From Veillonella sp. DNF00869 (GTDB lineage Bacteria; Bacillota; Negativicutes; Veillonellales; Veillonellaceae), in assembly GCF_001553345.1 (NCBI RefSeq), contig NZ_KQ960749.1, forward strand, positions 62,001 through 126,000: DNA of 64,000 nucleotides, given 5' to 3'. Within the stretch, counting starts at the first letter, position 1. The number at the start of each line of letters is the position of its first letter. The position numbers were made by a program, and so were the translations under genes. Below, in pieces: positions 3,313 through 61,830 of the stretch. The notes beneath the pieces were generated by a model. That model saw nothing but the letters and a program-made list of their open reading frames with translations. It was not told where the DNA came from and searched no databases.

Positions 3313-4030
3313 CTTGTGTCTCCTTACTACATAAGATATAAATACATTGCCTATGTTGCTTGCACTCATACTTTCTATAAACGTGAAACTTAATATATAT
3401 ATAAATGAATGTATATAAGGGCGGTTCACCACTTACTAGAATACTAGAACGTGCAAATGTCTAGGTCTTTTTACGCTCTCATTATATCCAATCATTTCAG
3501 AAGGTAAAAATAAAAATCCTTTATAAGGCTTATAAAAATTTTATTATCATCAAAAAGCCTTCATGTATGCATTTAGAGAATACATTATAAACATAGGTAT
3601 CATGCGGTTTTTATGTTATTCCTACTAAATTGTTCCTATTTTCATGATATATATCTATAATAATTGCTACTTTCATATACATTAACAGTCTGTTAATAGT
3701 ATTATAAACTAATCAAATATTAGCATTAGAAAAATCTATACATTGTAAAAACTCAAGCATACTAATATACAAAAGTACCAACTACAATGCAAACCACATA
3801 CAAAAAGAACGCAACTCAATTAGCTGCGCTCTTTATATGTAATACTTTATACGCTTTATCAACTATGAGGCCTTGTTCGACCAGACATGTAACCCCTATC
3901 TATCTATATACGTAGTCAGGGACATATTTTTTGCTGACCAAATATATACAAATCCATTAAGTTGTATACTTATATCTATGGACAAAAATACCTGACAGTT
4001 GTAAATCCTTACCATACGCACATCAGCCTC
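3313..4030 (+). other. Gene-free region between carrier gene and LysR gene
   Basis: 718 AT-rich bases without a credible reading frame. On the minus strand there is a TATAAT (plus 3481-3486), a candidate -10 for the carrier operon, though its -35 (TTTACC, 16 bases away) is weak. A dyad ATTAACA-GTC-TGTTAAT lies at 3681-3697 and has the T-N11-A form of LysR-type operators. The LysR terminator hairpin is at 3804-3834. The rest shows nothing I can assign. Confidence 0.6.
3804..3834 (-). terminator. Terminator downstream of the LysR gene
   Basis: Arms 3804-3816 and 3822-3834 pair (11 of 13 plus two G:U) around a five-base loop; on the minus strand the second arm runs into TTCTTTTTGT. It lies about 200 bases beyond the LysR stop codon. 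Confidence 0.65.
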
Positions 4031-31831: not shown

Positions 31832-33016
31832 TTATTTCAGCTCAAATAATGGGGTATTCTTTGCTTGATCCCCCAAAGCTGTTTGTGTAAATGTATTAAT
31901 GAATTGTTGCACCGCCAATGTTGGTGTTAAACGTCCCTCAATAACCGCGTCTTCGATGCCACCACGACACGCTACAATTTCTGGTGCACGATAGAACAAG
32001 TTTTGTAAATGTTCTTCTACCATGGAATATACCCACGATAAGGTTTGATCACGGCGACGTGCTTGTAGCACTCCATTGCCTTCACATTGTTCCATGAATT
32101 TTTCGATAACCCCTTGCCATAACTCCATGATACCATCCCCTGTGTAAGCAGAGCATGTGTAGGCATGGGTTGTCCATTGTTCCGTCGCATCACGAATAAA
32201 CCATAAAATACGTTCGTATTCTTGGCGTGTCACTTTTGCCCGTTGTAAATTGTCACCATCAGCTTTATTGACCACTATAGCATCGGCTAATTCCATAACA
32301 CCTTTTTTCATGCCTTGTAATTCATCCCCAGCGCCAGTAAGCACTACAAGCAAGAAAAAGTCTACCATGGAACGTACTGTAGTTTCACTTTGTCCTACTC
32401 CTACGGTTTCTACTAGGATTGTATCGTACCCTGCCGCTTCACATAACAGCAAGGTTTCTCTACTTTTACGAGTCAACCCGCCCAAAGTGCCACCTGATGG
32501 GGATGGGCGAATGAATGCATTCGGCTCCCGTGAAAGTTGTTCCATCCGCGTTTTATCCCCTAGGATAGATCCGCCTGTCACTGTACTCGATGGGTCTACT
32601 GCAAGAACAGCCACCTTATGACCGTTTTGACATAGCTTTGTGCCCAGTGCTTCAATCAAAGTCGATTTACCAGCACCCGGTACCCCTGTTATCCCTACAC
32701 GGGTAGATTTACCAGTATATGGCAATAATCGTTGGATTACCTGCTGCGCCATTTCGAAATGGGCAGCTGCATTACTTTCAATTAAAGTAATGGCACGGGA
32801 TAAAACCATTCGATTACCAGCTAGCACCCCTTCTACATAGTCATCAACGGTCAATTTTTTCCGTTTTACTACCTTAGGAGCTACTGGCTTTTGTGGCGCA
32901 TGGGTATGTGCATCCATCCCATCATGGCCACCGTCCACACCGCGCATAACACGGCATGCAAATTTATCATCTTTCTCCTCAGGAACCCAAGAAGGCTTAT
33001 AGGTATCATCACTCAT
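31832..33016 (-). CDS. meaB: MeaB-type GTPase chaperone of methylmalonyl-CoA mutase (copy 1)
   Basis: 394 residues from ATG 33016, which has AAAGGAGGG upstream. The G3E-family GTPase core is clear: GVTGVPGAGKSTLIEALG-type P loop near residue 110, AVDPSSTVTGGSILGDKTRM, VETVGVGQSETTV and VVNKADGDN. MeaB guards and reloads the adenosylcobalamin of the mutase. Compared with the second copy at 51046-51987, this one has about 60 extra N-terminal residues with an acidic start, GGHDGMDAHTHAP and a KRKK segment. It is the third gene of the mutA-mutB-meaB operon and so should serve MutAB. ArgK is an older name for this family. Confidence 0.93.
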   Translation of the reverse strand: MSDDTYKPSWVPEEKDDKFACRVMRGVDGGHDGMDAHTHAPQKPVAPKVVKRKKLTVDDYVEGVLAGNRMVLSRAITLIESNAAAHFEMAQQVIQRLLPYTGKSTRVGITGVPGAGKSTLIEALGTKLCQNGHKVAVLAVDPSSTVTGGSILGDKTRMEQLSREPNAFIRPSPSGGTLGGLTRKSRETLLLCEAAGYDTILVETVGVGQSETTVRSMVDFFLLVVLTGAGDELQGMKKGVMELADAIVVNKADGDNLQRAKVTRQEYERILWFIRDATEQWTTHAYTCSAYTGDGIMELWQGVIEKFMEQCEGNGVLQARRRDQTLSWVYSMVEEHLQNLFYRAPEIVACRGGIEDAVIEGRLTPTLAVQQFINTFTQTALGDQAKNTPLFELK

Positions 33017-33143
33017 AAGACACCCTCCTTTCACCGATTCGAATATGACAAACACGCAATCAGTAGCCAGCTACAAAGTAGCACGAGGCACTGACTACGT
33101 GTCATGTCTTACCTATATACGTATATCAGATTTTGAATACTAA

Positions 33144-35327
33144 TTATTCTTCCTCTTCTAGACGTTCTTCTAACAATTCAAGTACTTTTTTAGCACATAC
33201 TGGAATGATGGTACCAGGTCCAAAGATCGCTGCTGCACCATGCTCATAGAGATAATCATAATCTTGAGCTGGGATAACGCCACCGATAACAACCATAATA
33301 TCTTCACGGCCTAGCTTTTTAAGCTCTTCACATAATTGAGGCATCAATGTTTTGTGACCAGCTGCTAAGGAACTCATACCTACGATATGTACGTCATTAT
33401 CTACCGCATCTTTTGCTGCTTCTTCTGGAGTTTGGAATAAAGGTCCAATATCTACGTCATAGCCCATATCTGCGAAGGCTGTAGAAATTACCTTAGCTCC
33501 GCGGTCGTGACCATCTTGACCCATTTTCGCTACGAAAATACGTGGACGGCGACCATGTTTCTCTTCAAATTTTTCAGTCATGCTGCGTACTTCTGTGATT
33601 ACATCATCATCGCTGAATTCGCTGCTGTATACGCCAGAAATGGAGCGAATAATCGCTTTATGACGGCCACATACTTTTTCTACTGCATCAGAGATTTCAC
33701 CTTTAGACGCACGAGCACGAGCTGCTTCTACGGCTAATTCAAGCAAGTTTCCTTCTCCTGTTTCCATCGCTTTTGTAATCGCATCCAAACAGCTACGTAC
33801 TTTGTCATTATCACGATTAGCACGCAATGTTTTCAAGCGTTCGATCTGTGCCAAACGTACAGCTGTATTGTCTACTTCCAAGATATCTAATGGATCTTCT
33901 TTATCAAGGCGTAAGTAGTTGACACCGACGATTTTTTCACTACCAGAGTCAATGTGCGCTTGGCGACGAGCTGCCGCTTCTTCGATACGCATTTTTGGAA
34001 GACCTGTATCAATCGCTTTAGACATACCACCCAAGGCTTCAACTTCTTGAATATGAGCCCAAGCTTTACGGATCAATTGGTTAGTCAAGAATTCTACATA
34101 GTAAGAACCGCCCCATGGGTCGATAACTTTACATACATTAGTTTCATCTTGGATATACAATTGCGTATTACGAGCGATACGCGCCGAGAAGTCTGTAGGC
34201 AACGCAATCGCTTCGTCAAGAGCATTTGTATGTAAGGATTGGGTATGACCCAAAGCTGCTGCCATCGCTTCGATACAAGTACGAGTGATGTTATTGAATG
34301 GATCTTGTTCTGTTAAAGACCAACCAGATGTTTGGGAGTGAGTACGCAATGCCATAGATTTAACATTTTTTGGACCAAAGGATTTAACAATTTTAGCCCA
34401 TAACATACGGCCTGCACGCATTTTAGCGATTTCCATGAAGTAGTTTTTACCCATCGCCCAGAAGAAGGATAAGCGCGGTGCGAATTGGTCAACTGTAAGA
34501 CCCGCTGCCACACCTGTACGCAAGTATTCCAAACCATCGGCCAAGGTGTAACCTAATTCGATATCTGCTGTAGCACCTGCTTCTTGCATATGGTAACCAG
34601 AGATAGAAATACTATTGAATTTAGGCATGTATTTAGATGTATAGGCGAAGATATCACCGATGATACGCATAGAAGCTGCTGGTGGATAAATGTAAGTATT
34701 ACGCACCATGAACTCTTTCAAAATATCATTTTGGATCGTACCTGCCATAACGGATTTATCTACGCCTTGTTCTTCACCGGCTAAGATATAGAAGGCCATA
34801 ACTGGTAATACAGCACCATTCATTGTCATAGATACAGACATTTGGTCCAATGGAATACCAGAGAACAAGATTTCCATATCCAAGATAGAGTCTACCGCAA
34901 CGCCGGCTTTACCAACGTCACCGACTACACGAGGGTGGTCAGAGTCGTAACCACGGTGAGTAGCCAAGTCGAAGGCGATAGACAAACCTTTTTGACCTGC
35001 CGCTAAGTTACGACGATAAAAGGCATTGGATTCTTCCGCTGTGGAGAAACCTGCATACTGACGTACTGTCCAAGGACGTTGTACATACATTGTGCCATAT
35101 GGTCCACGAAGATACGGAGGAATACCCGCTACATATTGTAAATGGTTACATTGATCATAAATGGAGGCATCATACACAGGACCCACATCGATTTGTTCCA
35201 TAGTACGAATGAAGTTGTCATCATAGGACTTGCCAGTTTCAGCTTGTAATTGCTCTTTCCATGCATCGAAATCGGATGCTTTTGGGCTAGCAGCTGTAAA
35301 AGGAATATTTCTAAAATCCGGAATCAT
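33144..35327 (-). CDS. mutB: Methylmalonyl-CoA mutase large (catalytic) subunit, MutB type
   Basis: 727 residues combining the TIM-barrel substrate domain and the C-terminal cobalamin-binding domain. [21 protein letters not shown] and [17 protein letters not shown] are barrel blocks; [19 protein letters not shown] (DxHxxG, with the cobalt-ligating His) and [14 protein letters not shown] identify the B12 domain. It interconverts succinyl-CoA and methylmalonyl-CoA. The start ATG directly follows the mutA stop (TAG then ATG), with AAAGGAA upstream. It pairs with MutA as in Propionibacterium-type heterodimers. Confidence 0.95.
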
Positions 35328-37502
35328 CTACATCATTCCTTTCTCGCGTTGCATTGCTAATAATGTTTGATAGCAATTGGAGCGTACACTAATATAATCA
35401 TCCATGCCTGCTGCATCGCAAAGTTCTTTCAACTCTGGAGATGGAGCCCCTGCCAAGAATACTTTCATAGCTGGGCGAGCGGCTTTGATTGCTTTTGTCA
35501 CTGCTGGTGCCAATTCTGGGTATGTATCGTCAGTGGAACATACGATTGTCACATCTGCATTCGATGCTAAGGCAGCTGCTACTGCTTCGTCTACAGTTGG
35601 GAATCCATCATTTGTAAGCACATCAAATTCAGCTACTTGCATGAAAGAAGTAACAAAATCGGCTCTCGCTTTATGTTGAGGAATTGGACCCATGTTAGCC
35701 AAGAAGATTTTAACATTATCCCCATTATGTGTTTCTTTGAAGTTTTCAGTGCGCATACGCAATTCTTCGTATTGTTCTGTCCAACGATGAGATAGAATTG
35801 CTTTCACAGTGATACCTTCACTACCATCTGCTAAGGCTTCAAAAACTTGTCCAAAGCTAGCGCCCGCTACTAATGCAGTATACGCAGCACTTACCAAAGA
35901 ACCAATTTCACTGAAGTCGGATTCTTGTAATTTTTTTAGAGCTAATTCAGCTGCATCAGTTGTACCCACATTAGCTAATGCTGCTACACGAACTTGGCGT
36001 AAGCCCTCAAAATCTACCACTGGCACTTCTAGTAATTCTTCCGTCATATTTGGATACATGTTACTACCAACGGCACGATCTTTACGGGTTGCCAAGTTTT
36101 TAAAGCGGCTTTGTAAAATAGCATCCACGGCTTCTTGCGTTTCACCAGATACTAATGTTTCTAAGATGCCACCTTTACCTTCTAATTCTTGGAACAATGC
36201 CCAAGATTTTTCAGTCAATTCTTGTGTCAATGGTTCTAAGTACCAGCTACCGCCGGCAGGGTCAACTGGTTGAATAAAGTTGAACTCTTGTTGCTCCATG
36301 ATTTGAATATTACGGGCAATACGGCGAGAGAATTCATCACTTGGACGAATGCAGCCATCAAGAGGTCGTACAAACATACCATCCATACCACCTACTACTG
36401 CGGAGAAGGATTGAGAACCAGCACGTAATAAGTTTACATATGGATCAAATACAGTTTGTGTAAAGTGAGATGTACTTACGAACAAGTTAATTTTCTTCGC
36501 TTCTTCATTACCACCACAATGTTCAATAATTTGAGCCCATACCATTTTTATAGCACGTAGTTTAGCTATTTCCATGAAGAAATTAGCTCCTACACTGACA
36601 TGGAAACGAATTTGTTTTGCAAATGTATTCACATCGATACCACGGCGTTCCATCTCACGTAAATATGTCACAGCCGTAGACATAGCAAAACCCAATTCTT
36701 GTACGTCATTGCCACCGCCATTATGGTATACATCTGTATCTACCAAAACTGTGCGCAATTGTGGTGCATGTGCAGATGCCCAAGCAATGGTATGTGCCAT
36801 ATCATCGAAATATTCGTCCATAGGGCGTGATAAATGACCATCTTGTGCCAAAGTACCAATTGGATCTGCCCCAATCATACCGGACAAGGATTTTACATCC
36901 ACCCCTTGAGATTCGCAAAGCGCATGTAATGCAGCCGCCCAGCATACGCTACTAGCACCTGTACGAATATCTAATTCTTTTGTAGTTAAGTCCATGCCTT
37001 TTAATAAAGCTTCCACTTCTTCTACAGTAGACAAAGACACCCCTGCGTCAGCCACATCTTTAGCTTCAGCTTTCGTAGCATCTTGTCCTTTCCGTGTAGC
37101 ACTATCCAGTGTGAAACTGATAGCTGTGCTACCTTTATCTAATTCAAATTGTAACATGTCATGCATGTCAGCAATTGTTTTTCCGTCACAACGTTGTGCA
37201 ATTGTCCAAGGTGTATGGATATATCCACTAGCTTTCGCCCCCCGTAAATTGCTATCACGACCAGGATATGTCAAGTTTTGAGTCAATCCCTCTTGGTCGC
37301 TCAACCAATACATTGGTTGTAAAGTAATTCCTTCGTATGTTTTTGTATACATACTTTTTTGGAAATCTTTCCCTTTCAAGATACCTTCTACCGTCGTTTT
37401 CCACTCCTCGTAGGTAGGGATAGAAAACTCATCAAACGATACATCTGGTAGCTCAAACTGTTCTTCGTGAACTTGTGGTTCATGATGCTTGTCTTGTCCC
37501 AT
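35328..37502 (-). CDS. mutA: Methylmalonyl-CoA mutase small (non-catalytic) subunit, MutA type
   Basis: 724 residues, homologous end to end with MutB but degenerate. The barrel region (SWYLEPLTQELTEKSW, RIARNIQIMEQQEFN) is recognisable, whereas in the C-terminal domain the DxHxxG cobalamin motif is replaced by MGPIPQHKARADF, so it should not bind B12 and plays the structural role known for the small subunit of the heterodimer. The first 40 residues are acidic and His-rich (KHHEPQVHEEQF). It heads the riboswitch-controlled operon; the ribosome site is GGAAG before ATG 37502. Confidence 0.93.
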   Translation of the reverse strand: MGQDKHHEPQVHEEQFELPDVSFDEFSIPTYEEWKTTVEGILKGKDFQKSMYTKTYEGITLQPMYWLSDQEGLTQNLTYPGRDSNLRGAKASGYIHTPWTIAQRCDGKTIADMHDMLQFELDKGSTAISFTLDSATRKGQDATKAEAKDVADAGVSLSTVEEVEALLKGMDLTTKELDIRTGASSVCWAAALHALCESQGVDVKSLSGMIGADPIGTLAQDGHLSRPMDEYFDDMAHTIAWASAHAPQLRTVLVDTDVYHNGGGNDVQELGFAMSTAVTYLREMERRGIDVNTFAKQIRFHVSVGANFFMEIAKLRAIKMVWAQIIEHCGGNEEAKKINLFVSTSHFTQTVFDPYVNLLRAGSQSFSAVVGGMDGMFVRPLDGCIRPSDEFSRRIARNIQIMEQQEFNFIQPVDPAGGSWYLEPLTQELTEKSWALFQELEGKGGILETLVSGETQEAVDAILQSRFKNLATRKDRAVGSNMYPNMTEELLEVPVVDFEGLRQVRVAALANVGTTDAAELALKKLQESDFSEIGSLVSAAYTALVAGASFGQVFEALADGSEGITVKAILSHRWTEQYEELRMRTENFKETHNGDNVKIFLANMGPIPQHKARADFVTSFMQVAEFDVLTNDGFPTVDEAVAAALASNADVTIVCSTDDTYPELAPAVTKAIKAARPAMKVFLAGAPSPELKELCDAAGMDDYISVRSNCYQTLLAMQREKGMM

Positions 37503-37728
37503 AGTCTAGCTTCCTTTCTCTGACCACATAGGCATACGTTCCCTTACTCAAACCACTTTTCTAGTGAGATTTGCCTCATTATAGAGATTCTAATAGCTTA
37601 TGTAATCGTTGCAGCTCTCATAAAATAAAATAAACAATTAGAAACTGGGTATACCCTACCCATCCCTATAACTCATCACCCTACCTAGTCTCTTACTGAA
37701 AGATATAACTATCATTCATAAAAGAAAA

Positions 37729-37750
37729 ACCGTTTTCGATTGAAAACGGT
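37729..37750 (-). terminator. Riboswitch-linked intrinsic terminator ahead of mutA
   Basis: Perfect nine-base arms (37729-37737 and 37742-37750) with a four-base loop; the minus strand continues TTTTTCTTTT. It sits between the cobalamin riboswitch and mutA, about 230 bases before the mutA start. A segment at 37791-37798 can pair with the base of the hairpin (37746-37752) with one bulge, a candidate antiterminator. Confidence 0.85.
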
Positions 37751-37821
37751 AGGTTATGATTTAGCGTATGCACTTAGCGCAAAACCATCTCTACCCGTCT
37801 CTCGCGGATCTAACGACATGC

Positions 37822-37977
37822 TTCTTACGGCAGTTCTTCTGACTCAGGATCTTCGCTACGCTTCGCCTTCCCAGTTTCCCAGTGACGCTACATGAAGTTT
37901 CGCTCCCCTTTACAGCGGCGGGACCGTGTTGGCTTTTCACCAAGCTTCCCTATTAAGCCTTGCGGCACCAGTAAGGC
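37822..37977 (-). ncRNA. Cobalamin riboswitch upstream of mutA
   Basis: Read on the minus strand, the aptamer landmarks appear in order: a P1 strand CTTAC, GGTGCC, AATAGGGAAGC, GGTGAAAAGCC, ACGGTCCCGCCGCTGTAA, GGGGAGCGAA, CACTGGGAA, GGGAAGGCGAAG, GATCCTGAGTC and the B12 box AGTCAGAAGAACTGCC (plus 37829-37844), closed by the P1 partner GTAAG. It is followed by an intrinsic terminator, the arrangement used for transcriptional control by adenosylcobalamin or another corrinoid. The downstream genes encode a B12-dependent enzyme, which is unusual (see findings). Confidence 0.95.
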
Positions 37978-37997
37978 GAATATAAAGTTATACCTTG

Positions 37998-38003
37998 ATT
38001 ATA
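37998..38003 (-). promoter_or_regulatory. Candidate -10 box of the riboswitch-mutAB transcript
   Basis: TATAAT on the minus strand placed so that transcription would begin about 10-15 bases before the riboswitch P1 stem. The -35 region is poor. Confidence 0.45.
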
Positions 38004-38374
38004 AACTGTTTTCTGAAAGAATAGAACGGCCTTTATGGACTATAACAATATTTCACATTTACATAATTTTCAGTTATCGCAAGATACTTATAACGCATTT
38101 TACAATCTTACTAACGCAATGATTAGCATCTATCTCATAATAGACCATCTATTCATTACTAATAGTTATTTAATGTATAATCTATATTTATCCTCAATAG
38201 ACTCGTTACATCCTAACATATGCACATCTCTCTATATCCCTAAGTCTCTCTACACACTGTCTACTAACTCGCCTCTCTTTCATCTTCTTACAGGCCTTCA
38301 CTCTTCTACCATCACTCACTCCTTTTTCAAAAGAACTTCCCATTCTATGCAATAGCACCTACTAGATATGCAAA
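38004..38374 (+). other. Gene-free region upstream of the cobalamin riboswitch
   Basis: About 370 bases. The part 38200-38340 is pyrimidine-rich on the plus strand (purine-rich on the minus strand). Short open frames exist but lack ribosome sites or familiar protein character. No feature beyond the flanking terminator and promoter can be supported. Confidence 0.5.
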
Positions 38375-38408
38375 AACAGAGGTACGCCTACAGTAGCATA
38401 CCTCTGTT
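38375..38408 (-). terminator. Terminator of the second LysR gene
   Basis: Arms 38375-38387 and 38396-38408 pair at 12 of 13 positions; minus-strand tail is GTTTTTGC. It protects the riboswitch operon from read-through. Confidence 0.85.
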
Positions 38409-38435
38409 CTATCGCTTATATTCTATTACAAAAGC

Positions 38436-39371
38436 TTATTTCTTTTTCCATTCCATGACTTCAAAACCATAGTTACGAATATGTTCTTTCAAGAGTTTTA
38501 AATATTTTTTCGCAATGGGACTTGGCTCTAGCATATGTGGCATTAAGTAACCCATAGTCATCGTATCTTCTACATCTAGAGGAATGGCGATGATCTTATC
38601 ATCGTTTAACTCACGACTCAAAATACCAGAACTAATGGTATATCCATTTAAGCCGACCATTAAGTTGAAAATTGTAGCACGGTCCGATACTTTGATAGTC
38701 ATTTTTCTGTCTAAAGTACTTAAAATTTCTTCTGAAAAATAGAAGGAGTTATCTTCCCCTTGGTCATAACTTAAGTATGGGAAGTCTTCTAATTCTTCTA
38801 GTGTAATTTTATCTTGTTTCGCTAATGGATGTTCACGACACAAAAATACATGTGGTTCCGCTTCAAATAATGGATAAAATGTCAATTTATACTCTTTAAA
38901 TAATTTCTCCATCACTTGACGATTGAAGTTGTTCAAATACAAAATACCTAATTCACTTTTGAAAGTAGCTAAATCTTCAAAAATATTTTGCGTTTCTGTT
39001 TCACGTAAACCAAATTGATATTCATCAGTATCTACACTTTTGATAAGCTCTACAAATGCATGGACCACAAAGGCATAATGCTGAGCGGAAATAAAGAAAT
39101 GTTCTTTTCGTTTGGTATTCGATTTATATCGCTCTTCTAATAATTGAATTTGATCTAGCACTTGCCGAGCATAAATCATAAATTCTCGACCATCATGAGT
39201 CAAAGTAACTCCTGATTTAGTACGCAATAGTAGTTGAACACCCATTTCATGTTCTAATTCTTTCACTGCATTGGATAAGCTAGGTTGGGATAAATATAAT
39301 TCCTTAGCCGCTTCATTAATAGATCCTTTTTCTGCAATTTTTTCTAAATATTGTAATTGTTGTATTCTCAT
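38436..39371 (-). CDS. LysR-family transcriptional regulator near the DcuC/amidohydrolase genes
   Basis: 311 residues. The helix-turn-helix is KIAEKGSINEAAKELYLSQPSLSNAVKELEHEMG read across residues 11-44, and the effector domain follows, with an aromatic/acidic segment (SYDQGEDNSFYFSEE) in the sensor region. It lies downstream of the carrier and amidohydrolase genes in the same direction but has a terminator before it (39441-39475), so it is probably transcribed alone. Control of the upstream carrier/amidohydrolase pair is a guess from proximity. The C-terminus is basic (EWKKK). Confidence 0.88.
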   Translation of the reverse strand: MRIQQLQYLEKIAEKGSINEAAKELYLSQPSLSNAVKELEHEMGVQLLLRTKSGVTLTHDGREFMIYARQVLDQIQLLEERYKSNTKRKEHFFISAQHYAFVVHAFVELIKSVDTDEYQFGLRETETQNIFEDLATFKSELGILYLNNFNRQVMEKLFKEYKLTFYPLFEAEPHVFLCREHPLAKQDKITLEELEDFPYLSYDQGEDNSFYFSEEILSTLDRKMTIKVSDRATIFNLMVGLNGYTISSGILSRELNDDKIIAIPLDVEDTMTMGYLMPHMLEPSPIAKKYLKLLKEHIRNYGFEVMEWKKK

Positions 39372-48955: not shown

Positions 48956-50485
48956 TTATAGAGGGATATTACCGTGTTTTTTCGGAGCACGGGTTTCGCG
49001 TTTACTTGCCAACATTGCTAATGCATTGATGATAGCAGGTCGAGTATGTTTAGGTTCAATTACCACGTCAACGAATCCACGTTCAGCAGCTTTGTATGGA
49101 GTTGCAAACTCTTCTACGTATTTAGCTGTTTTTTCATCTTTATCTTCATCACGTTTGAAAATGATGTTCGCTGCACCAGCAGGTCCCATTACAGCAATTT
49201 CAGATGTAGGCCATGCATACACTTGGTCTGCACCCAAATCTTGGGAACACATTGCAAGGTAAGATCCACCATATGCTTTACGAGTGATAACAGTAATTTT
49301 AGGTACTGTTGCTTCAGAGTAAGCATATAACATTTTCGCACCGTGACGAATGATGCCGCCCCATTCTTGGTTTGTGCCCGGTAGGAAGCCCGGTACGTCA
49401 ACGAAGTTTACAACAGGGATATTGAAAGCATCGCAGAAACGGATAAAGCGGGAAGATTTGTCAGATGCATTGATATCTAAGCAACCTGCCATTACGCGTG
49501 GTTGGTTAGCAATGATACCTACGCTTTGTCCAGCAAAACGTGCGAAACATGTAATGATATTTTGTGCGTAGTGTGGTTGTACTTCATAGTATTCACCATT
49601 ATCTACTGTTGCACGAATCACATCAAACATGTCGTAAGGCATATTTGGATTATCTGGAAGTAAAGTATTTAAACCTTCATCTTCACGAGCTGGGTCATCA
49701 CCAGTGTCAACTAATGGAGTATCTTCCATATTGTTGCTTGGTAAGAAGCTCAACAAGTAACGAATTTGTGCTAAGCAATCATCTTCGTTTTCTGTTGCAA
49801 AGTGAGCTACACCAGATACACTGTTATGAGCCATTGCACCACCAAGGTCTTCTGCTGTTACTTCTTCTGCTGTTACAGATTTGATAACTGCTGGACCAGT
49901 GATGAACATTTGAGATGTATGTTTAACCATGTAAATGAAGTCAGTTAATGCTGGAGAGTATACCGCACCACCTGCACATGGTCCCATGATAACGGAAATT
50001 TGTGGGATAACGCCAGAAGCGTTAGTGTTTTCAAAGAAGATTTTACCGTAGCCAGCTAATGCGTCTACTGCTTCTTGAATACGAGCTCCACCGGAGTCAT
50101 TGATGCCGATAATAGGAGCGCCCATTTTCATTGCCATACGTTGTGCTTTAACGATTTTAGCAGCGTGCATTTCCCCAAGGGAACCACCTTCTACTGTAAA
50201 ATCTTGAGCAAAAGCAAATACCAAACGTCCGTCGATAGTACCGTAACCAGTCACTACGCCTTCACCTGGTAATTCTTTTTTCTCTTGACCGAAGTTCACA
50301 CAACGATGTTTAACGAATTGATCTAATTCAACAAAACTATTTTCGTCGAATAATTTTTCAATACGTTCACGAGCTGTATATTTACCGCTCGCATGTTGTT
50401 TTTCTACGCGTTTTTCACCGCCACCTTGTTTAACAGTGGACAGCTTTTTGTGCAATAATTCAATTTTTTCCTGAACCGTTGCCAT
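48956..50485 (-). CDS. mmdA: Methylmalonyl-CoA decarboxylase alpha subunit (carboxyltransferase)
   Basis: 509 residues, the standard length of the propionyl-CoA carboxylase beta-like transferase. Visible blocks are [22 protein letters not shown], the oxyanion hole [17 protein letters not shown] in the N-terminal half and [22 protein letters not shown] with [18 protein letters not shown] in the C-terminal half. It moves CO2 from methylmalonyl-CoA to biotin on MmdC, releasing propionyl-CoA. It follows the epimerase gene by 36 bases. Ribosome site GGAGGTG before ATG 50485. Confidence 0.97.
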
Positions 50486-50521
50486 TTTACACCTCCATAG
50501 AATAATTACGGATATAGTTTA

Positions 50522-50944
50522 TTATTTCATACGTTGGCAAAGTTCTAATAAAACACCGCCAGTAGCTTTTGGATGAAGGAATGCAATTGCAGATCCACCA
50601 GCACCATAGCGAGGTTCTTCGTCGATTAATTGAACACCTTTTGCTTTTAAGTCAGCAATCGCTGCTTTGATGTCATCAACGCGAAGTGCTACGTGTTGGA
50701 TACCATTACGGCCACCATTTTTTTCGATGAAACGACCGATAGGGCCATCTGGAGTTGTAGATTCTAAGAACTCAAGTTCAGCATCACCGCAAGGGAAGAA
50801 GCTTACTTTTACTTTTTGCTCTTCAACTACTTCATCTTCTGGTAGATGTTCCATACCAAGTGCGTTTTTATAAAACTCTTTTGTTGCTGCCAAGTCAGAT
50901 ACACCGATACCGATGTGGTCTACTTGTAATACTTTGAATGCCAT
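50522..50944 (-). CDS. mce: Methylmalonyl-CoA epimerase
   Basis: 140 residues, a vicinal-oxygen-chelate fold protein. Metal-binding residues are visible in QVDHIGIGVSDL (His10), GIQHVALRVDD (second His) and GGVLLELCQ (Glu near the C-terminus); KEFYKNALGMEH and LIDEEPRYGAGGSAIAFLHPK are family blocks. It converts (R)- to (S)-methylmalonyl-CoA, linking the mutase to the decarboxylase. It lies between the MeaB gene and mmdA, in pathway order. Ribosome site AAAGGAGAG before ATG 50944. Confidence 0.95.
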   Translation of the reverse strand: MAFKVLQVDHIGIGVSDLAATKEFYKNALGMEHLPEDEVVEEQKVKVSFFPCGDAELEFLESTTPDGPIGRFIEKNGGRNGIQHVALRVDDIKAAIADLKAKGVQLIDEEPRYGAGGSAIAFLHPKATGGVLLELCQRMK

Positions 50945-51045
50945 AATAACTCTCCTTTCAAATGAGCTGCAACTCGAAAGTGATTTTTGTCATCTTTCGA
51001 TTACTTATATGATACCACGATATTAGATTTTTATCATTCTTTTTA

Positions 51046-51987
51046 TTATCTTTTTAAGGACTTTTCTAATACCGAGTTAACAACACTATAAGGGTCGTTA
51101 GTTCTATTATTAACAGCTGCTACATCTTGTTTGAAAGCGTCGCTTTCAACCACATGTTCATGAACATAACGCATAATTTGCTCATTGATCATCGCTACTA
51201 GTTCATCATGCGTACGTTCTGCACGGCGAGCTGCTAATTCTCCACTATCTTCAAGATATTCAAAGTGTTCATCTAGTGCTTCCACTAATTCATCAACACC
51301 TTCATCTTTACTAGCGATAGTTCTCTTAATTGGTGGTCTCCAATCAAGTTCACGAGAATCTAAATCTAGCATCATTTCAATTTCAACATTAAGCTTATCA
51401 CAGCCATCGCGATCTGCTTTATTGATAGCGAATACATCGCCAATCTCTAAAATACCCGCTTTGATTGCTTGGATATCATCACCTAAACCTGGTACCAATA
51501 CAACCAATGTAGTATCTGCATTTTTAACGATATCTACTTCGGATTGTCCAACACCTACGGTTTCTATGATAACAAGATCCATGCCAAATGCATCCATTAA
51601 TTTAACAACATCTGCTGTTTTTTTAGATAATCCACCTAGGCTACCACGTGTACCCATACTACGGATAAATACATTTTCATTTAATGTCAAATCATTCATC
51701 CGAATACGGTCACCTAAAATAGCGCCGCCCGAGAATGGACTGGTTGGGTCAACAGCAACGATGCCGATTCTCTTACCTTGTTCTAGATAATGCTTAACCA
51801 CTTTATCTGTCAATGTACTTTTACCAGCTCCTGGAGCACCTGTGATACCCAAGATACGAGCCTTACCAGTACGTGGATAGATAGATTTCATAATGTCGAT
51901 CGCATTATCGTATTCATTTTCTACAGCCGTAATCGACCGAGCCAAAGCAAGACGAGAACCTTCTAATAGTTCTTTGATTAAATCCAT
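51046..51987 (-). CDS. meaB: MeaB-type GTPase chaperone of methylmalonyl-CoA mutase (copy 2)
   Basis: 313 residues from ATG 51987; an in-frame ATG 14 codons earlier lies closer to the previous gene but has no better ribosome site, so the start is somewhat uncertain. GITGAPGAGKSTLTDKVV is the P loop, followed by AVDPTSPFSGGAILGDRIRM, IETVGVGQSEVDIV and AINKADRDG. Length is typical for MeaB. It lacks the long His-rich N-terminal extension of the copy at 31832-33016. It lies between the cobalamin-binding mutase subunit and the epimerase, so it should serve the split mutase. Confidence 0.94.
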   Translation of the reverse strand: MDLIKELLEGSRLALARSITAVENEYDNAIDIMKSIYPRTGKARILGITGAPGAGKSTLTDKVVKHYLEQGKRIGIVAVDPTSPFSGGAILGDRIRMNDLTLNENVFIRSMGTRGSLGGLSKKTADVVKLMDAFGMDLVIIETVGVGQSEVDIVKNADTTLVVLVPGLGDDIQAIKAGILEIGDVFAINKADRDGCDKLNVEIEMMLDLDSRELDWRPPIKRTIASKDEGVDELVEALDEHFEYLEDSGELAARRAERTHDELVAMINEQIMRYVHEHVVESDAFKQDVAAVNNRTNDPYSVVNSVLEKSLKR

Positions 51988-52055
51988 ATTGTCACCGTCC
52001 CAATTATATATACGTCTAGGCTCGAACATACATGCCCGAGCCTAGCTCAAGTATA

Positions 52056-52451
52056 TTATTTTACGTTAGCTTTGATGAATTCAATTACATCAGCTGTTGG
52101 AGTGCCTGGTGTGAATACTGCGGATACGCCAGCTTCTTTTAAGCCAGGGATATCAGCGTCAGGAATAACGCCACCACCAACTACTAATACATCGCCCATG
52201 CCTTTTTCTTTAAGCATTTCAACGATTTTAGGGAACAATGTGTTGTGCGCGCCAGAAAGAAGAGATAACGCAACTACGTTAACGTCTTCAGAAAGAGCAG
52301 CTTCAACGATTTGTTCTGGAGTTTGACGAAGACCTGTGTAGATAACTTCGAAACCAGCATCGCGAAGTGCGCGTGCTACTACTTTTGCACCACGGTCATG
52401 ACCATCAAGACCTGGTTTTGCTACGATTACTCTGATACGTTTTTCTGCCAT
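52056..52451 (-). CDS. Methylmalonyl-CoA mutase cobalamin-binding subunit (split type)
   Basis: 131 residues comprising only the B12 domain: [19 protein letters not shown] (DxHxxG, His ligates cobalt), [14 protein letters not shown] and [12 protein letters not shown]. In many archaea and some bacteria the mutase is divided into this small chain (McmA2/MutC-like) and a separate barrel chain; the barrel chain is the next gene upstream. Ribosome site GGAGGTATA before ATG 52451. It has its own full set of cofactor-binding residues, so it is not a remnant. Confidence 0.95.
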
Positions 52452-52481
52452 GATGTTATACCTCCAAATAGGTTCGATTAA

Positions 52482-54128
52482 TTATAGTGTGGAATGAGCT
52501 TGGTATTCACCGAATACGCCGCGCAATACGTTACAAATTTCACCTAATGTAGCATATGTTTTAACGGCAGCCAAGATTAATGGCATCAAGTTTACAGATT
52601 CATCTTCTGCACCAGCTTTTAATGCTGCTAATGCTGCATCAACTGCTGCTTGATCACGGTCTGCACGAACTTGTTGTGTTTTCTTAGATTGGTTGATACC
52701 TACAGAAGCATCGATACGAAGAAGACCTTCAACTGGTTTTTCCTCAACTTGGAATTTGTTAACACCTACGATTGTACGAAGGCCAGATTCCACTTCCATT
52801 TGCCATTTATAAGCAGACTCTTGGATTTCTTTTTGGATGTAACCTTTTTCGATAGCTTCAACAGCGCCACCCATTTCATCGATTTTTTGGATGTATGCTT
52901 TAGCTTCTTCATAGATAGCATTAGTCATAGCTTCTACATAGTAAGAACCACCCAATGGGTCAACTACGTCAGCTAAACCGGATTCGTAAGCAACGATTTG
53001 TTGAGTACGAAGAGCGATTTGTACAGATGCTTCAGTTGGAAGAGCCAATGCTTCGTCACGAGAGTTAGTATGTAAGGATTGAGTACCACCCATTACAGCA
53101 GCTGCAGTTTGAAGAGCAACACGAACGATGTTGTTGTCAACTTGTTGTGCAGTCAACATAGAACCAGCTGTTTGAGTATGTACACGTAACATCATGGATT
53201 TAGGTTTTTTAGCACCAAAACGTTCTTTCAAGATATGTGCCCATAGACGACGGGATGCACGGAATTTTGCAACTTCTTCTAATACATTGTTGTGTGCATT
53301 CCAGAAGAAGGATAAACGACCTGCAAAATCGTCAACTTCTAAGCCAGCTTTAAGAGCTGCTTCGATGTATGCAATACCATCAGCAATTGTGAAAGCGATT
53401 TCTTGCGCAGCAGTGGAACCAGCTTCACGAATATGGTAACCGGAGATGGAGATAGTATTCCATTTTGGCACATATTGAGAGCAATATTCGAAAATATTAG
53501 TGATTAAACGCATGGATGGTTTTGGAGGGAAGATGTAAGTTCCGCGAGCTGCGTACTCTTTCAAAATATCATTTTGAATTGTACCGCGAAGTTCAGTGGA
53601 AGGTACACCTTGTTTTTCAGCAACTGCAATGTACATAGCAAGAAGTACAGATGCAGGAGCGTTGATTGTCATAGAAGTGGAAACTTTGCCTAAGTCGATA
53701 CCTTGGAACAAGATTTCCATATCTTTTAAGGAGTCAATCGCAACACCTACTTTACCAACTTCGCCTTCAGCCATAACATCATCAGAGTCATAACCGATTT
53801 GTGTTGGTAAGTCGAATGCGCAAGAAAGACCAGTTGCACCGGACTCGATTAAGTAACGGTAACGTTTGTTGGACTCTTCAGCAGTTGCGAAACCAGCATA
53901 CATACGCATTGTCCAGAAACGGCCACGGTACATAGTAGGTTGCACACCACGAGTGTAAGGATAGAATCCTGGGAATCCAAGATCACGTTCATAATCAAAA
54001 CCTTCTAAATCAAGCGGTGTGTATACCGGTTGTTCTGGTAAGTTTTGACGAGCAGGTACTTTCTCACAGTTTTTAGCGTACGCTGCATCATATTCAGCAA
54101 GTTTGGCTTTTAAGTTGTCATTAGCCAT
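52482..54128 (-). CDS. Methylmalonyl-CoA mutase catalytic barrel subunit (split type)
   Basis: 548 residues from ATG 54128 (AGGAGG nine bases upstream; two further ATGs lie between). It is the TIM-barrel domain alone: [77 protein letters not shown] and [14 protein letters not shown]. There is no C-terminal cobalamin domain, which is supplied by the following 131-residue protein. It performs the radical rearrangement of succinyl-CoA. The protein ends in [15 protein letters not shown] as is usual for split mutases. Confidence 0.95.
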
Positions 54129-54149
54129 GTTCATCATCCTCCTATAAAA

Positions 54150-55658
54150 TTAACCTTGTTTTTTCATGCTTCCTGTTTCAGTGAAGCGTTTATGCCAAGA
54201 AAGAGCTTCATCTAATAAGATAGGTGTATGGGCGCCATTTGTCTTTTCAATAGCTCTTTCGAGGTAGTTAAGTAATTCTTGTTTGTAGTCTGGGTGAGCA
54301 CAGTTTTCAATGATTTTGTATGCTCTTTCAATTGGAGCCAAACCACGAACATCGGCAATACCTTGTTCTGTACAGAATACTTGTACATCATGTTCTGTAT
54401 GGTCAATGTGGGATACAAAAGGAACGATGGAACTGATGTCTCCGCCTTTTGCTACAGAGTTCGTACAGAAAATGGAGATATAACCATTTCGAGTGAAGTC
54501 CCCGGAACCACCGATACCATTCATCATTTTGCTACCCATGATATGAGTAGAGTTTACATTACCAAAGATATCGAATTCAATCGCTGTATTCATAGTGATA
54601 ACACCAAGTCTACGAGCTAATCCAGGGTTATTGGAAATCTCTTGTGGGCGCAAGAGAATATGTTTGCTGTATTTTTCAATATTGTCATAGAAGCGTTTCA
54701 ATCCATCTGGGGATGGGGATAATGCTGTACCAGAGCAATCTGTTACTTTACCTGCATCGATTAAGTCCAACATACCATCTTGGATAACTTCTGTGAAAAT
54801 GGATAAGTTTGTGAAAGGACCTTCCGCCAAGCCAGACACAACAGCATTTGCTACGGAACCTACGCCAGATTGTAATGGCAATAAGTTTTCAGGTAAGCGA
54901 CCTGCTTTTACCTCTTCTAAGAAGAAGTTAATCAAATGTTGACTCATCGCTTTTGCATCATCATCGATTGGTGCTAGTGGACGAGTTGTGTCAGGTACAT
55001 CACATGGAACGATAGCTACGATTTTCGCAGGATCACATGGGATGTAATCTGTTCCGATACGATCGCCAGCCGCTTTGATTGGGAATGGCTCACGGTATGG
55101 AGGATCTTGTGGTTCATAGATATCGTGCATACCTACCAAAGACATTGGTTGAGATACGTTCACTTCTACGATAACTTTTTTAGCTTGGCTAACAAATGTT
55201 GGAGAGTTACCAACGGATGTACTAGGAACGATACCACCATCTTCACGGATGCAAACCGCTTCAATGATAGCTACGTCAGTGTCACCGAAGAAACCATACC
55301 GGATTTGTTGAGCCATTTGGCTAAGGTGCATATCAATATAACGAATTTTTTGGCTATTTAAAGCTTTACGAGTATCGTTATTTGTTTGATATGGGAAACG
55401 ACGACGAATACCGTTTACACGAGTTAACGCTCCGTCTGCTTCATCACCAACTGATGCACCAGTCCAAAGATCAATTTGGAAAGGATCTGATTCCATGCGT
55501 TTTGCTAGAGCCAATGGCACTGCTTTAGGGTAACCAGATGGTGTAAAACCACTGATACCTACATGGTCTCCTGGATTAATCAATTTAGCTGCTTCTTCTG
55601 CTGTAGTAATTTTTGCTTGCAACGCTGCGCCTTGCACGCGATCTAAAATGTCGATCAT
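54150..55658 (-). CDS. Succinyl-CoA:acetate/propionate CoA-transferase (Cat1/ScpC family)
   Basis: 502 residues, the size of the acetyl-CoA hydrolase/transferase class. GDHVGISGFTPSGYPKAVP near the N-terminus, PLQSGVGSVANAVVSGL, FTEVIQDGMLDLIDAGKV (with the Glu that forms the CoA thioester in the family) and NGIGGSGDFTRNGYISIF are recognisable. In this setting it should pass CoA from propionyl-CoA to succinate, closing the propionate cycle without ATP cost. It is the first gene of the ten-gene operon, with AAAGGAGATGG before ATG 55658. Confidence 0.92.
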   Translation of the reverse strand: MIDILDRVQGAALQAKITTAEEAAKLINPGDHVGISGFTPSGYPKAVPLALAKRMESDPFQIDLWTGASVGDEADGALTRVNGIRRRFPYQTNNDTRKALNSQKIRYIDMHLSQMAQQIRYGFFGDTDVAIIEAVCIREDGGIVPSTSVGNSPTFVSQAKKVIVEVNVSQPMSLVGMHDIYEPQDPPYREPFPIKAAGDRIGTDYIPCDPAKIVAIVPCDVPDTTRPLAPIDDDAKAMSQHLINFFLEEVKAGRLPENLLPLQSGVGSVANAVVSGLAEGPFTNLSIFTEVIQDGMLDLIDAGKVTDCSGTALSPSPDGLKRFYDNIEKYSKHILLRPQEISNNPGLARRLGVITMNTAIEFDIFGNVNSTHIMGSKMMNGIGGSGDFTRNGYISIFCTNSVAKGGDISSIVPFVSHIDHTEHDVQVFCTEQGIADVRGLAPIERAYKIIENCAHPDYKQELLNYLERAIEKTNGAHTPILLDEALSWHKRFTETGSMKKQG

Positions 55659-58827: not shown

Positions 58828-61488
58828 TTATGCTAATGTTTTTAAGAACTCTTCACGTTCGTTCAAGGCTTGTTGTTTTTGTTTGTATTCTTCCAATTTT
58901 TCTTTTTCTTTCGCTACTACCGCTTCAGGAGCTTTCGCTAAGAATCCTTGGTTGTTCAATTTACCTTCTAAACGAGCGATTTCTTTCAATACTGTGGCTT
59001 GTTCTTTGGCGATACGTTCTTTTTCTTTGTCTGCGTCAATTAAATCTTTCAACAACAAGTACACTTCTAAGCCGTTCACCACAGTTACTGTAGCGTTTTC
59101 TGGTTTTGGCGCATCTGGTGAAAGTACTGTTACTTTTTCTGCCCAACCTAAGGTATGGAAGTAATCACCATGGGTTTCTAAGATACCTTTCAATTCTTCT
59201 GTAGCAGGCACTAAGATAACTTCAGAACGTTTGCCCATTGGTACATTCATTTCTGCACGCATGTTACGGATACCTTTAATGCCGTCCATCATCACATTCA
59301 TATGTGCCGCTGCAGAGCCGAAACCTTCCATGGATAATGTACTTGGCCATGGAGCAACCATGATGCTCTCCCCTTCATGTGACAAGTGTTGCCAAATATG
59401 TTCTGTTACGAATGGCATGAATGGGTGCAATAATTCCATCATATGACGAAGAATGGATACCAATAGGTATTGAGCTGTTTGACGGTCACGGCCACCTTCT
59501 TTGTTGTACAAACGAGGTTTCGCTAATTCAATGTACCAGTCGCAGTACGTATTCCAAATGAAATCGTATACAGCGCTCGCTGCTTCCCCTAATTCAAATT
59601 TATCAAGGTTATTCGTAATGTTTGTGACTGTTTTATTGTATTCTTCTAGAATCCATTTATCTGCCAATGTGTAGTCTTCTGCGCTTGGTACAAAACTTTC
59701 ATCAAAGCCTTCTAAGTTCATCAACACAAATTTGGATGCATTCCAAATTTTATTAGCGAAATTACGGTTTGCTTCCACACGTTCCATGTAAAAACGCATA
59801 TCGTTCCCCGGTGTATTGCCTGTTACCAAGGTAAAGCGCAACGCATCGGCACCGTATTCTTCGATCACTTCTAATGGATTGATACCATTGCCCAAGGATT
59901 TACTCATTTTGCGACCTTGGCTATCACGTACTAGGCCATGAATGAATACGTGTTTGAAAGGAATTTCTTCTTTAAATTCTAAGCCCATAAAAATCATACG
60001 AGCTACCCAGAAGAAGATAATGTCATACCCTGTTACCATGACGCTAGTTGGATACCAATGTTTCACTTCCTCTGTATTGTCAGGCCAACCCATTGTGGCA
60101 AATGGCCATAAAGCGGAGCTGAACCATGTATCTAGTACGTCTGGATCTTGTTCTACTTTGCCATGGCAATGTGGACATTCTGTCAATGTTTCTGTCGTTA
60201 CAATCGTTTCCCCACAATCTTGACAGTACCACGCTGGGATACGATGTCCCCACCACAATTGACGAGAAATACACCAATCACGAATAGACTCTAACCAGTT
60301 GGTATATGTTTTAGTAAAACGTTCTGGTACAAATTCAATAGATTTATCACGTACCACTTCTAAGGCAGGTTTTGCCAATGGCTCCATAGATACGAACCAC
60401 TGTTTCGACACCATAGGTTCTACTGTCGTGTTACAACGAGAACAATGACCTACACTATGCCCATGTTCTTCCACTTTTTCTAATAAACCTTGAGCCTCAA
60501 GTTCTGCTACTACTTGTTTACGCGCTAATTCACGAGGCATGTTCACAAAGTGACCTGCTCCTGCATTCATGGTGCCATCTGGGTTCATCACCACGATACT
60601 TTCTAAGTTATGGCGTTGTCCCATTTCAAAGTCATTAGGGTCATGAGCTGGAGTGATTTTTACGCAACCAGTACCGAAAGATTGATCTACGTATTCATCA
60701 GCAATGATTGGGATATGCCGATTCACGAATGGAAGCAATAATTCTTTGCCTACTAAATGGGCATAGCGCTCGTCGTTAGGGTTCACCGCTACGGCTACGT
60801 CACCAAACATCGTTTCAGGGCGTGTGGTAGCTACTGTTAAAAATACATCTTCTTCCCCGATCACAGGATATTTAATATGCCATAAATGACCATTTTCATC
60901 TTCGTGTTCTACTTCGATATCGGATAAAGCTGTCAAACAATTAGGGCACCAGTTAGTGATGCGTTCTCCACGATAGATTAAACCTTTTTCGTATAACTCT
61001 ACGAATACTTTTAATACTGCTTCATGGTAACCTTCATCCAAGGTAAAACGCTCTCTCGTCCAGTCACAAGAAGCACCTAAACTACGGATTTGTTTTACGA
61101 TGGTGCTACCGTACTCTTGTTTCCACTCCCATACACGTTTCAAGAACTCTTCACGACCTAAATCATGACGAGATTTTCCCTCTATTTTCATGATATTTTC
61201 TTCTACTTTTACTTGCGTTGCAATCCCTGCATGGTCTGTACCAGGCATCCACAACACGTTATAGCCTTGCATACGTTTCGTACGAATCAAAATATCTTGC
61301 AAGGTGTTATCAAGGGCATGACCCATGTGTAATTGGCCTGTTACATTTGGTGGTGGTAACACAATGCTAAACGGCTCTTTATTCGTATCTACTTCCTCGT
61401 GAAAGTACCCTTTCTCTTCCCAATATGTATACCATTGTTGTTCAATCTCTTTTGGATTGTAAGTTGTGAGATTTTTATATTCCTTCAT
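58828..61488 (-). CDS. valS: Valine--tRNA ligase
   Basis: 886 residues, the expected length. The class I signatures are [16 protein letters not shown] (HIGH motif) near residue 47 and [11 protein letters not shown] (KMSKS) near residue 525; the editing domain ([29 protein letters not shown]) lies between, and a C-terminal coiled coil rich in Lys/Glu (residues 815-880) follows, as in ValRS. ATG 61488 has AGGAGGACAT upstream. Expression is under a T-box leader sensing uncharged tRNA-Val. Confidence 0.97.
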
Positions 61489-61594: not shown

Positions 61595-61830
61595 CAAAAA
61601 GACCCCTTCGTCCATTAGGACGAAAGGGTCTATACTTCCGCGGTACCACCTAGATTATTGCCGTAGCAATCACTCATTATCGTTAACGCTGATCAGCGGG
61701 CACACTTACTCTAGTTCACCATGCCAACTCCGAGGCTACCCTCTTTCTATTACATACATTGTTCCACCAACCCAATGCTCTCTGTGATGCGTTCAAAAGA
61801 TTTTTCCTCTTCTTAGTCATTATCTATATA
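61595..61830 (-). ncRNA. Valine-specific T-box leader of valS
   Basis: Minus strand: stem I region AGAGAGCATTGGG through GGGTAGCCTCGGAGTTGG, whose GTA (plus 61737-61739) lies at the specifier position and is a valine codon; then the T-box AGGTGGTACCGCGGAA (plus 61637-61652), which pairs with the tRNA acceptor end; then the terminator at 61600-61631. Uncharged tRNA-Val should stabilise the antiterminator and allow valS-folC transcription. Confidence 0.93.
61600..61631 (-). terminator. T-box terminator ahead of valS
   Basis: Arms 61600-61613 and 61618-61631 pair at 13 of 14 positions with a four-base loop; minus-strand tail is TCTTTTTGTA. It lies about 110 bases before valS. Confidence 0.92.

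Follow-up and report, generated by a model that had tools for sequence, protein, structure and literature searches.

A corrinoid riboswitch with a repressing layout before a B12-dependent mutase operon of Veillonella and its relatives

The mutA-mutB-meaB locus and its leader

The window, as we call the whole 64-kb stretch of DNA analysed here, contains a mutA-mutB-meaB operon preceded by a cobalamin riboswitch aptamer and an intrinsic terminator, together with a second mutase operon (Table 1). The DNA reads as Veillonella-type: among the matches listed, the best named relatives of its MutA come from Veillonella sp. VA142 (98%, best segment) and V. seminalis (67%). The original prediction had placed a cobalamin riboswitch and a terminator before these three genes, and the Rfam covariance search that it proposed as a check confirmed the arrangement, with a full-length match to RF00174 (91.6 bits against a gathering threshold of 31.5, E 2.1e-21, model positions 1–189 of 189) and a terminator downstream of it. 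The span first assigned to the element, 37729–37977, does contain it, save for the initial 11 nt of the aptamer match. This is the sole cobalamin match at or above the gathering threshold in the 64 kb, which gave four Rfam matches in total. One of the others, to the Yersinia sRNA family Ysr283 (2619–2871, 75.9 bits), lies on the strand opposite to a transporter-like frame (1891–3432); being antisense to that frame, it was set aside as probably a chance or shared-gene match. A T-box leader (61613–61823, 123.4 bits) before a frame at 58828–61488 that by eye resembles valyl-tRNA synthetase is ordinary.

Table 1 Features of the window discussed in the text
Feature	Position	Strand	Basis or detail
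meaB, mutase-associated GTPase (longest frame)	31832–33055	−	NF006958, 482.6 bits, over cut-off
mutB, methylmalonyl-CoA mutase large subunit	33144–35327	−	NF006944, 1282.7 bits, over cut-off; PDB 1req, E 0
mutA, methylmalonyl-CoA mutase small subunit	35328–37502	−	TIGR00642, E 2e-115, 386 bits, under cut-off of 617
Intrinsic terminator	37729–37750	−	9 pairs, then TTTTCTTTTA; −10.6 kcal/mol
Antiterminator 3′ strand (predicted), overlaps terminator 5′ arm	37743–37762	−	Same predicted fold as the 5′ strand
Antiterminator 5′ strand (predicted), mostly 3′ side of P13	37782–37801	−	Free fold of transcript to end of terminator 5′ arm
P13-L13	37786–37820	−	Outer stem 37815–37820/37786–37791; inner stem 37805–37807/37795–37797; loop CGAGAGA 37798–37804
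Cobalamin (corrinoid) riboswitch aptamer	37812–37988	−	RF00174 covariance match
L5 loop UCCCG, aptamer half of presumed kissing loop	37919–37923	−	Sequence letters
Candidate −10 box TATAAT, directly before aptamer; −35 poor	37998–38003	−	8/12 against sigma-70 consensus
Second mutase operon, no riboswitch	48956–55658	−	CoA-transferase, split mutase, MeaB, epimerase, mmdA
Split mutase small, B12-binding subunit	52056–52451	−	In second operon
Split mutase large subunit	52482–54137	−	In second operon

As the complete leader folds with an ordinary free energy (z 0.13), the case for a riboswitch is built on the covariance match and conservation rather than on energy; score and conservation together rule out a chance element. 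Terminator-like sites number three in 37300–38500, against 0.4 expected in shuffles, and we infer that native termination takes place at the hairpin given in Table 1. The ~230 nt that separate this terminator from the mutA start codon could harbour a promoter that bypasses the riboswitch and leaves the operon largely free of it, and one promoter-like site is indeed found there (37606–37578). However, shuffles of the same region average 3.2 such sites, promoters just before the aptamer are conserved (score of at least 9 at this place in 46 of 65 leaders of the class, compared with 12% of mononucleotide shuffles), and the class as a whole retains the aptamer, making such a bypass quite improbable. 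A G-rich hairpin (TGGGTAGGGTATACCCA) at 37646–37662, in the same terminator–mutA interval, has a further copy of the GGGUAG motif found in P13.

Aligned to 1req, MutB keeps DGHDRG, whereas MutA is without the DxHxxG B12 motif. A MutB with the motif beside a partner MutA without it is the pattern of the MutAB heterodimer, and we read these residues as marking an active MutB and an inactive MutA. The TIGR00642 cut-off is reached by MutA in none of 200 genomes, and MutA was told from MutB by score and adjacency. Co-transcription of meaB with mutA and mutB appears probable from the gene arrangement. Six genomes of the same genus each have a cobyrinate a,c-diamide synthase match over the cut-off, which suggests that they may synthesise corrinoids, and two cobalamin riboswitches each.

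No cobalamin riboswitch was found before the second mutase operon in the Rfam search of the 64-kb window, which bears out an earlier remark that the other mutase had none. We take this operon, which contains a decarboxylase alpha subunit, to be the propionate operon. The best PDB match of its split large subunit is 2-hydroxyisobutyryl-CoA mutase, yet Y and R replace the I and Q of that enzyme, at positions that we assume to be diagnostic of the substrate residues of mutase as against hydroxyisobutyryl-CoA mutase; the split mutase genes share their operon with those for an epimerase and mmdA. The window MutA is 49% identical to that of genome G019, which we take to be V. parvula, and the window copy is thus related to, not identical with, the tested V. 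parvula copy discussed below. We also take the heterodimeric mutase of V. parvula to be MutAB, as its gene numbers agree with where mutAB lies in G019. Of the two mutases annotated in V. parvula, a heterotetramer and a heterodimer, both were tried in an S. meliloti mutase mutant, where the heterodimer restored growth; it was also purified (PMC6759758). The wording of the same source implies that the other, split mutase was without activity in S. meliloti, so that the standing of the split mutase as the main enzyme rests on its operon context.

Expression platform and sign of the switch

The window holds both an L5 loop and a P13-L13 hairpin 3′ of the aptamer, as in cobalamin riboswitches, and the letters of L5 are those of the published consensus (PMC10653944). 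By eye, CGAG of L13 could pair with CCCG of L5 with one mismatch, and the two loops presumably form a kissing loop. Corrinoid binding by the window aptamer is predicted by analogy, the response in print being that of the V. parvula reporter only (PMC9600662).

For comparison we used a set of 65 leaders, 46 after removal of near-duplicates, found with a search pattern in which parts of L13 and of the P13 5′ side are prescribed. The constancy of CGA and GA in L13 among these leaders is therefore by construction, as both are in the pattern, and only the 3′ side of P13 is a free observation. In the inner P13 stem, two variable positions are paired in 46/46 non-redundant leaders, with three pair types each, a result that shuffles match in 0.9% and 5% of trials. 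Single compensatory changes are seen among the leaders in the outer stem, for which a general test is not significant (p 0.13).

It had been predicted that 37791–37798 can pair with 37746–37752 and that a mutually exclusive fold is conceivable. This pairing is present inside the longer predicted antiterminator, and the proposed exclusivity holds in silico: the 3′ strand of P13 alternatively pairs with the 5′ arm of the terminator. For a transcript that stops where the terminator 5′ arm ends, the antiterminator is favoured (−20.3 kcal/mol, against −14.3 kcal/mol with P13 forced). With the complete terminator present, the free fold reaches −26.1 kcal/mol, P13 plus terminator −25.4 kcal/mol and the antiterminator state −22.1 kcal/mol; as P13 plus terminator now beats the antiterminator, the model needs co-transcriptional timing. 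Adding six nucleotides of the aptamer 3′ end to the fold keeps the antiterminator only in part, with three pairs reaching the terminator arm.

The alternative pairing is also seen among the relatives. A first terminator could be detected in 37 non-redundant leaders. Free folds of these give 4.81 pairs between the 3′ strand of P13 and the leader's own terminator 5′ arm, against 3.19 once the P13 half is taken from other genomes (p 2e-5) and 2.46 once the 3′ strand is shuffled (p 4e-6); five or more such pairs occur in 22 of the 37. A test of duplex energy is weaker (−10.86 versus −10.11, p 0.08 and 0.05; p 0.0005 against shuffles); by the criteria of this test, a terminator is absent in 11 of the 65 leaders. 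Two leaders of genus g94 (L121 and L123, from G318 and G317) have a second, degenerate-looking P13-like stretch (GCCUGCGAGCGAUGAUUAAAGGAUUG) ~100 nt after P13, which looks as if the expression platform were partly duplicated.

With P13 ending at 37786 and the terminator starting at 37750, the two do not overlap and have no common strand. Together with the ability of the P13 3′ strand to pair with the terminator 5′ arm, this makes the layout a repressing one, in agreement with the published rule, from which the S. ovata nikA riboswitch departed (PMC10653944). The repressing metE riboswitch of Priestia megaterium has a layout like that of the window, but its target is a B12-independent methionine synthase, whereas the target here needs B12 (PMC10653944). 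The cobT riboswitch of Alkalihalobacillus halodurans, which is activating, likewise consists of a corrinoid aptamer with P13, L13 and a terminator; there, however, P13 and terminator are mutually exclusive (PMC10653944), while a strand common to both, the mark of the activating layout, was not found in the window.

Of 86 reporters studied in B. subtilis, 38 were repressed. Among them, the mutA riboswitch of V. parvula serves to illustrate promiscuous repression, which it shows with Cbl, pCbl, CreCba and Cbi (PMC9600662). This riboswitch has the target gene, bacterial family, aptamer, P13 and terminator in common with the window; it differs in having been tested in a B. subtilis reporter rather than in Veillonella, and the window copy is a relative of it. 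The off sign rests on these published data and on the layout, and we hold sign and layout with high confidence; by analogy, the window copy is very probably repressed as well.

An on-switch, in which corrinoid binding relieves termination and enzyme production follows the presence of the cofactor, is biologically intuitive, and the original prediction had offered it on the view that an ordinary off-switch would make little sense before an enzyme that needs B12. Activating corrinoid riboswitches do exist, as A. halodurans cobT illustrates (PMC10653944), and mutA and mutB of X. ruminicola rise with cobalamin, though no riboswitch is near its propionate genes (PMC11575231). Against this, the V. 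parvula mutA riboswitch represses (PMC9600662) and P13 and terminator are without a common strand in the window. On the strength of the published reporter and the layout we set the on-switch aside, its probability being very small, and consider an off-switch very probable despite the initial objection. The available text of PMC9600662 does not take up the repression of an enzyme that depends on B12. In periodontitis, Veillonella transcripts carrying a cobalamin riboswitch ahead of a mutase gene have been reported as up (PMC7160235).

Under the off-switch, bound corrinoid would allow the L5-L13 kissing loop to stabilise P13, so that the P13 3′ strand would be occupied and the terminator could form. 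Without corrinoid, the P13 3′ strand would instead pair with the terminator 5′ arm, and mutA-mutB-meaB would be transcribed.

Distribution of the switch in Negativicutes

Genome-wide statements in this section and the next concern the genomes of relatives, not the window's own assembly. In a Veillonellales sample of 40 genomes, made up of the nearest relative and further genomes from within the order, a same-strand riboswitch precedes 23/23 mutA genes, 343–536 nt from the mutase domain, and none of 36 stand-alone large subunits, searched over 6 kb upstream as far as the contigs reach. A class sample of 40 genomes from 35 genera, chosen from MutA rows over 200 genomes, has a same-strand riboswitch in the stretch before mutA in 38 cases, intervening genes being disregarded in this count; at locus L069 it lies ~1.2 kb upstream of mutA and partly outside the examined stretch. 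Among 20 further regions, 16 had already been counted, and the four new ones (G159, G170, G182 and G187) all have the switch. Stand-alone large subunits were without a switch in all of 16 regions of ~4–5 kb upstream, two of which (G009 and G019) are shared with the 36 above. A further mutase gene is present in all 23 and all 38 switched genomes, with a stand-alone large subunit in each of the 23; in G087 it is seen as contig-end fragments only and in G172 within a 720-aa frame.

Outside the class, 40 loci were picked by label from 80 named loci kept of at least 551 MutA relatives. Among the matches listed, one of these 40 has a switch before the MutA relative, with the proviso that L172, labelled Clostridiales, may by similarity belong to the class and has only 790 nt upstream. 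The single case is a Synergistales metagenome-assembled genome (L190, 2687–2846), where a cobalamin riboswitch stands ~155 nt before the MutA relative, possibly through gene transfer.

Three class genomes carry two tandem same-strand cobalamin riboswitches before mutA (L032, L037 and L064). The other cobalamin riboswitch of G001 (L153 3724–3893, G001:C2, minus strand) precedes a MATE-family transporter gene with a MatE Pfam match, and that of G003 (L027, G003:C44) precedes a MATE-family transporter gene whose product has the same start as the G001 protein. At L024, L025 and L029 (from G002, G005 and G004), no same-strand frame of at least 250 aa was found within 1.5 kb downstream of the riboswitch.

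Lineages without a second mutase and the role of MutAB

The two genomes without the switch in the 40-genome class sample (G160 and G177, both of genus g71) are also the two without a mutase match besides mutA and mutB. We scored 380 class genomes, with at most three mutase candidates each; in g71, two mutase matches were found in 52 of 64 genomes, three in eight and one in four. Forty two-match genomes were then taken, comprising 35 of g71, three of g94, one of g93 and G368, the last being left out as its contig starts ~490 nt before mutA. In g71, a switch within 2.5 kb was found before none of 34 located mutA genes (G271 had fragments only), 28 of these loci being read, 25 with at least 700 nt upstream, one with 59 nt and two with no upstream length given. 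A cobalamin riboswitch occurs elsewhere in 33 of the 35 g71 genomes, and a stand-alone small subunit was found in none of the six examined.

In g93 and g94, by comparison, the switch is present before mutA in all four genomes (G316–G319), which are drafts of 85–93% completeness; neither a further large subunit nor a stand-alone small subunit was found in them, while the small subunit was present in 5/5 control genomes. Absence of the second mutase is thus accompanied by absence of the switch in g71 but not in g93 or g94, and the rule that the switch occurs only where a second mutase exists was dropped, as G316–G319 keep it with no second mutase found. In G316 (g93), mutA is preceded by a single terminator-like hairpin, which shares 3 nt with the P13 3′ strand. 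This is the activating layout, although the free fold shows no preference for the hairpin (−19.8 versus −19.1 when forced). As a bolder reading, where MutAB is the sole mutase found, control may have been lost (g71) or its sign flipped (G316, one draft genome).

When corrinoid is scarce, the operon of the window would provide a methylmalonyl-CoA mutase that depends on B12, together with a MeaB of its own, and the split mutase of the propionate operon would be made alongside, with no corrinoid switch. We conclude that the element is probably a corrinoid riboswitch that represses at the level of transcription, has the P. megaterium metE layout and controls a low-corrinoid MutAB-MeaB. The pattern of a switched MutAB-MeaB beside an unswitched split mutase favours a low-corrinoid isozyme, and for MutAB itself we give this role an even chance. 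That MutAB might serve low-B12 conditions had been among the original options; it fits the comparative data best, with the four genomes G316–G319 standing as counter-examples.

These four genomes, in which MutAB is the one mutase found and is still switched, point instead to dosage compensation, whereby scarce corrinoid would lead to more apo-mutase and MeaB to capture it, with no swap of isozymes. Such an off-switch explains g93 and g94 better than the isozyme role does, but in g71 MutAB is also the only mutase found and yet all 34 located mutA genes lack the switch, and stand-alone mutases were never switched among the genes examined, so that we regard dosage compensation as rather unlikely. 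The proteins might also bind or buffer free corrinoid, with the switch adjusting the pool, given that MutB keeps the B12-binding motif and that meaB is in the operon. We give this hardly any weight, as the MutAB-type heterodimer of V. parvula is a working mutase in S. meliloti (PMC6759758) and corrinoid would be expected to raise rather than lower the amount of a buffer.

Returning to the isozyme reading, the published category of isozymes under cobalamin riboswitches consists of alternatives to B12-dependent enzymes (PMC3766115; metE example in PMC2211319). In those pairs the riboswitch represses one member, as proposed here; there, however, the repressed member is the alternative to a B12-dependent enzyme, whereas here both members need B12 (PMC3766115, PMC2211319). 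As this kind of riboswitch is known from V. parvula, much of the surprise of the finding is gone, and what is new is comparative, namely the class-wide switch before mutA and its absence before stand-alone large subunits. In the open-access literature searched, we found neither the class-wide arrangement described nor its pairing with a mutase that has no switch.

Somewhat short of an even chance, we put forward that across the Negativicutes corrinoid riboswitches may repress one of two B12-dependent mutases, the cofactor level choosing between cofactor-dependent isozymes. The puzzle is that nearly every member of the class examined would repress a B12-dependent mutase with B12 while its twin has no switch, and g71, g93 and g94 are the lineages without the twin that lost or kept the switch. 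The finding bears on how oral and gut Veillonella and their relatives may sustain propionate production when cobamides are short.
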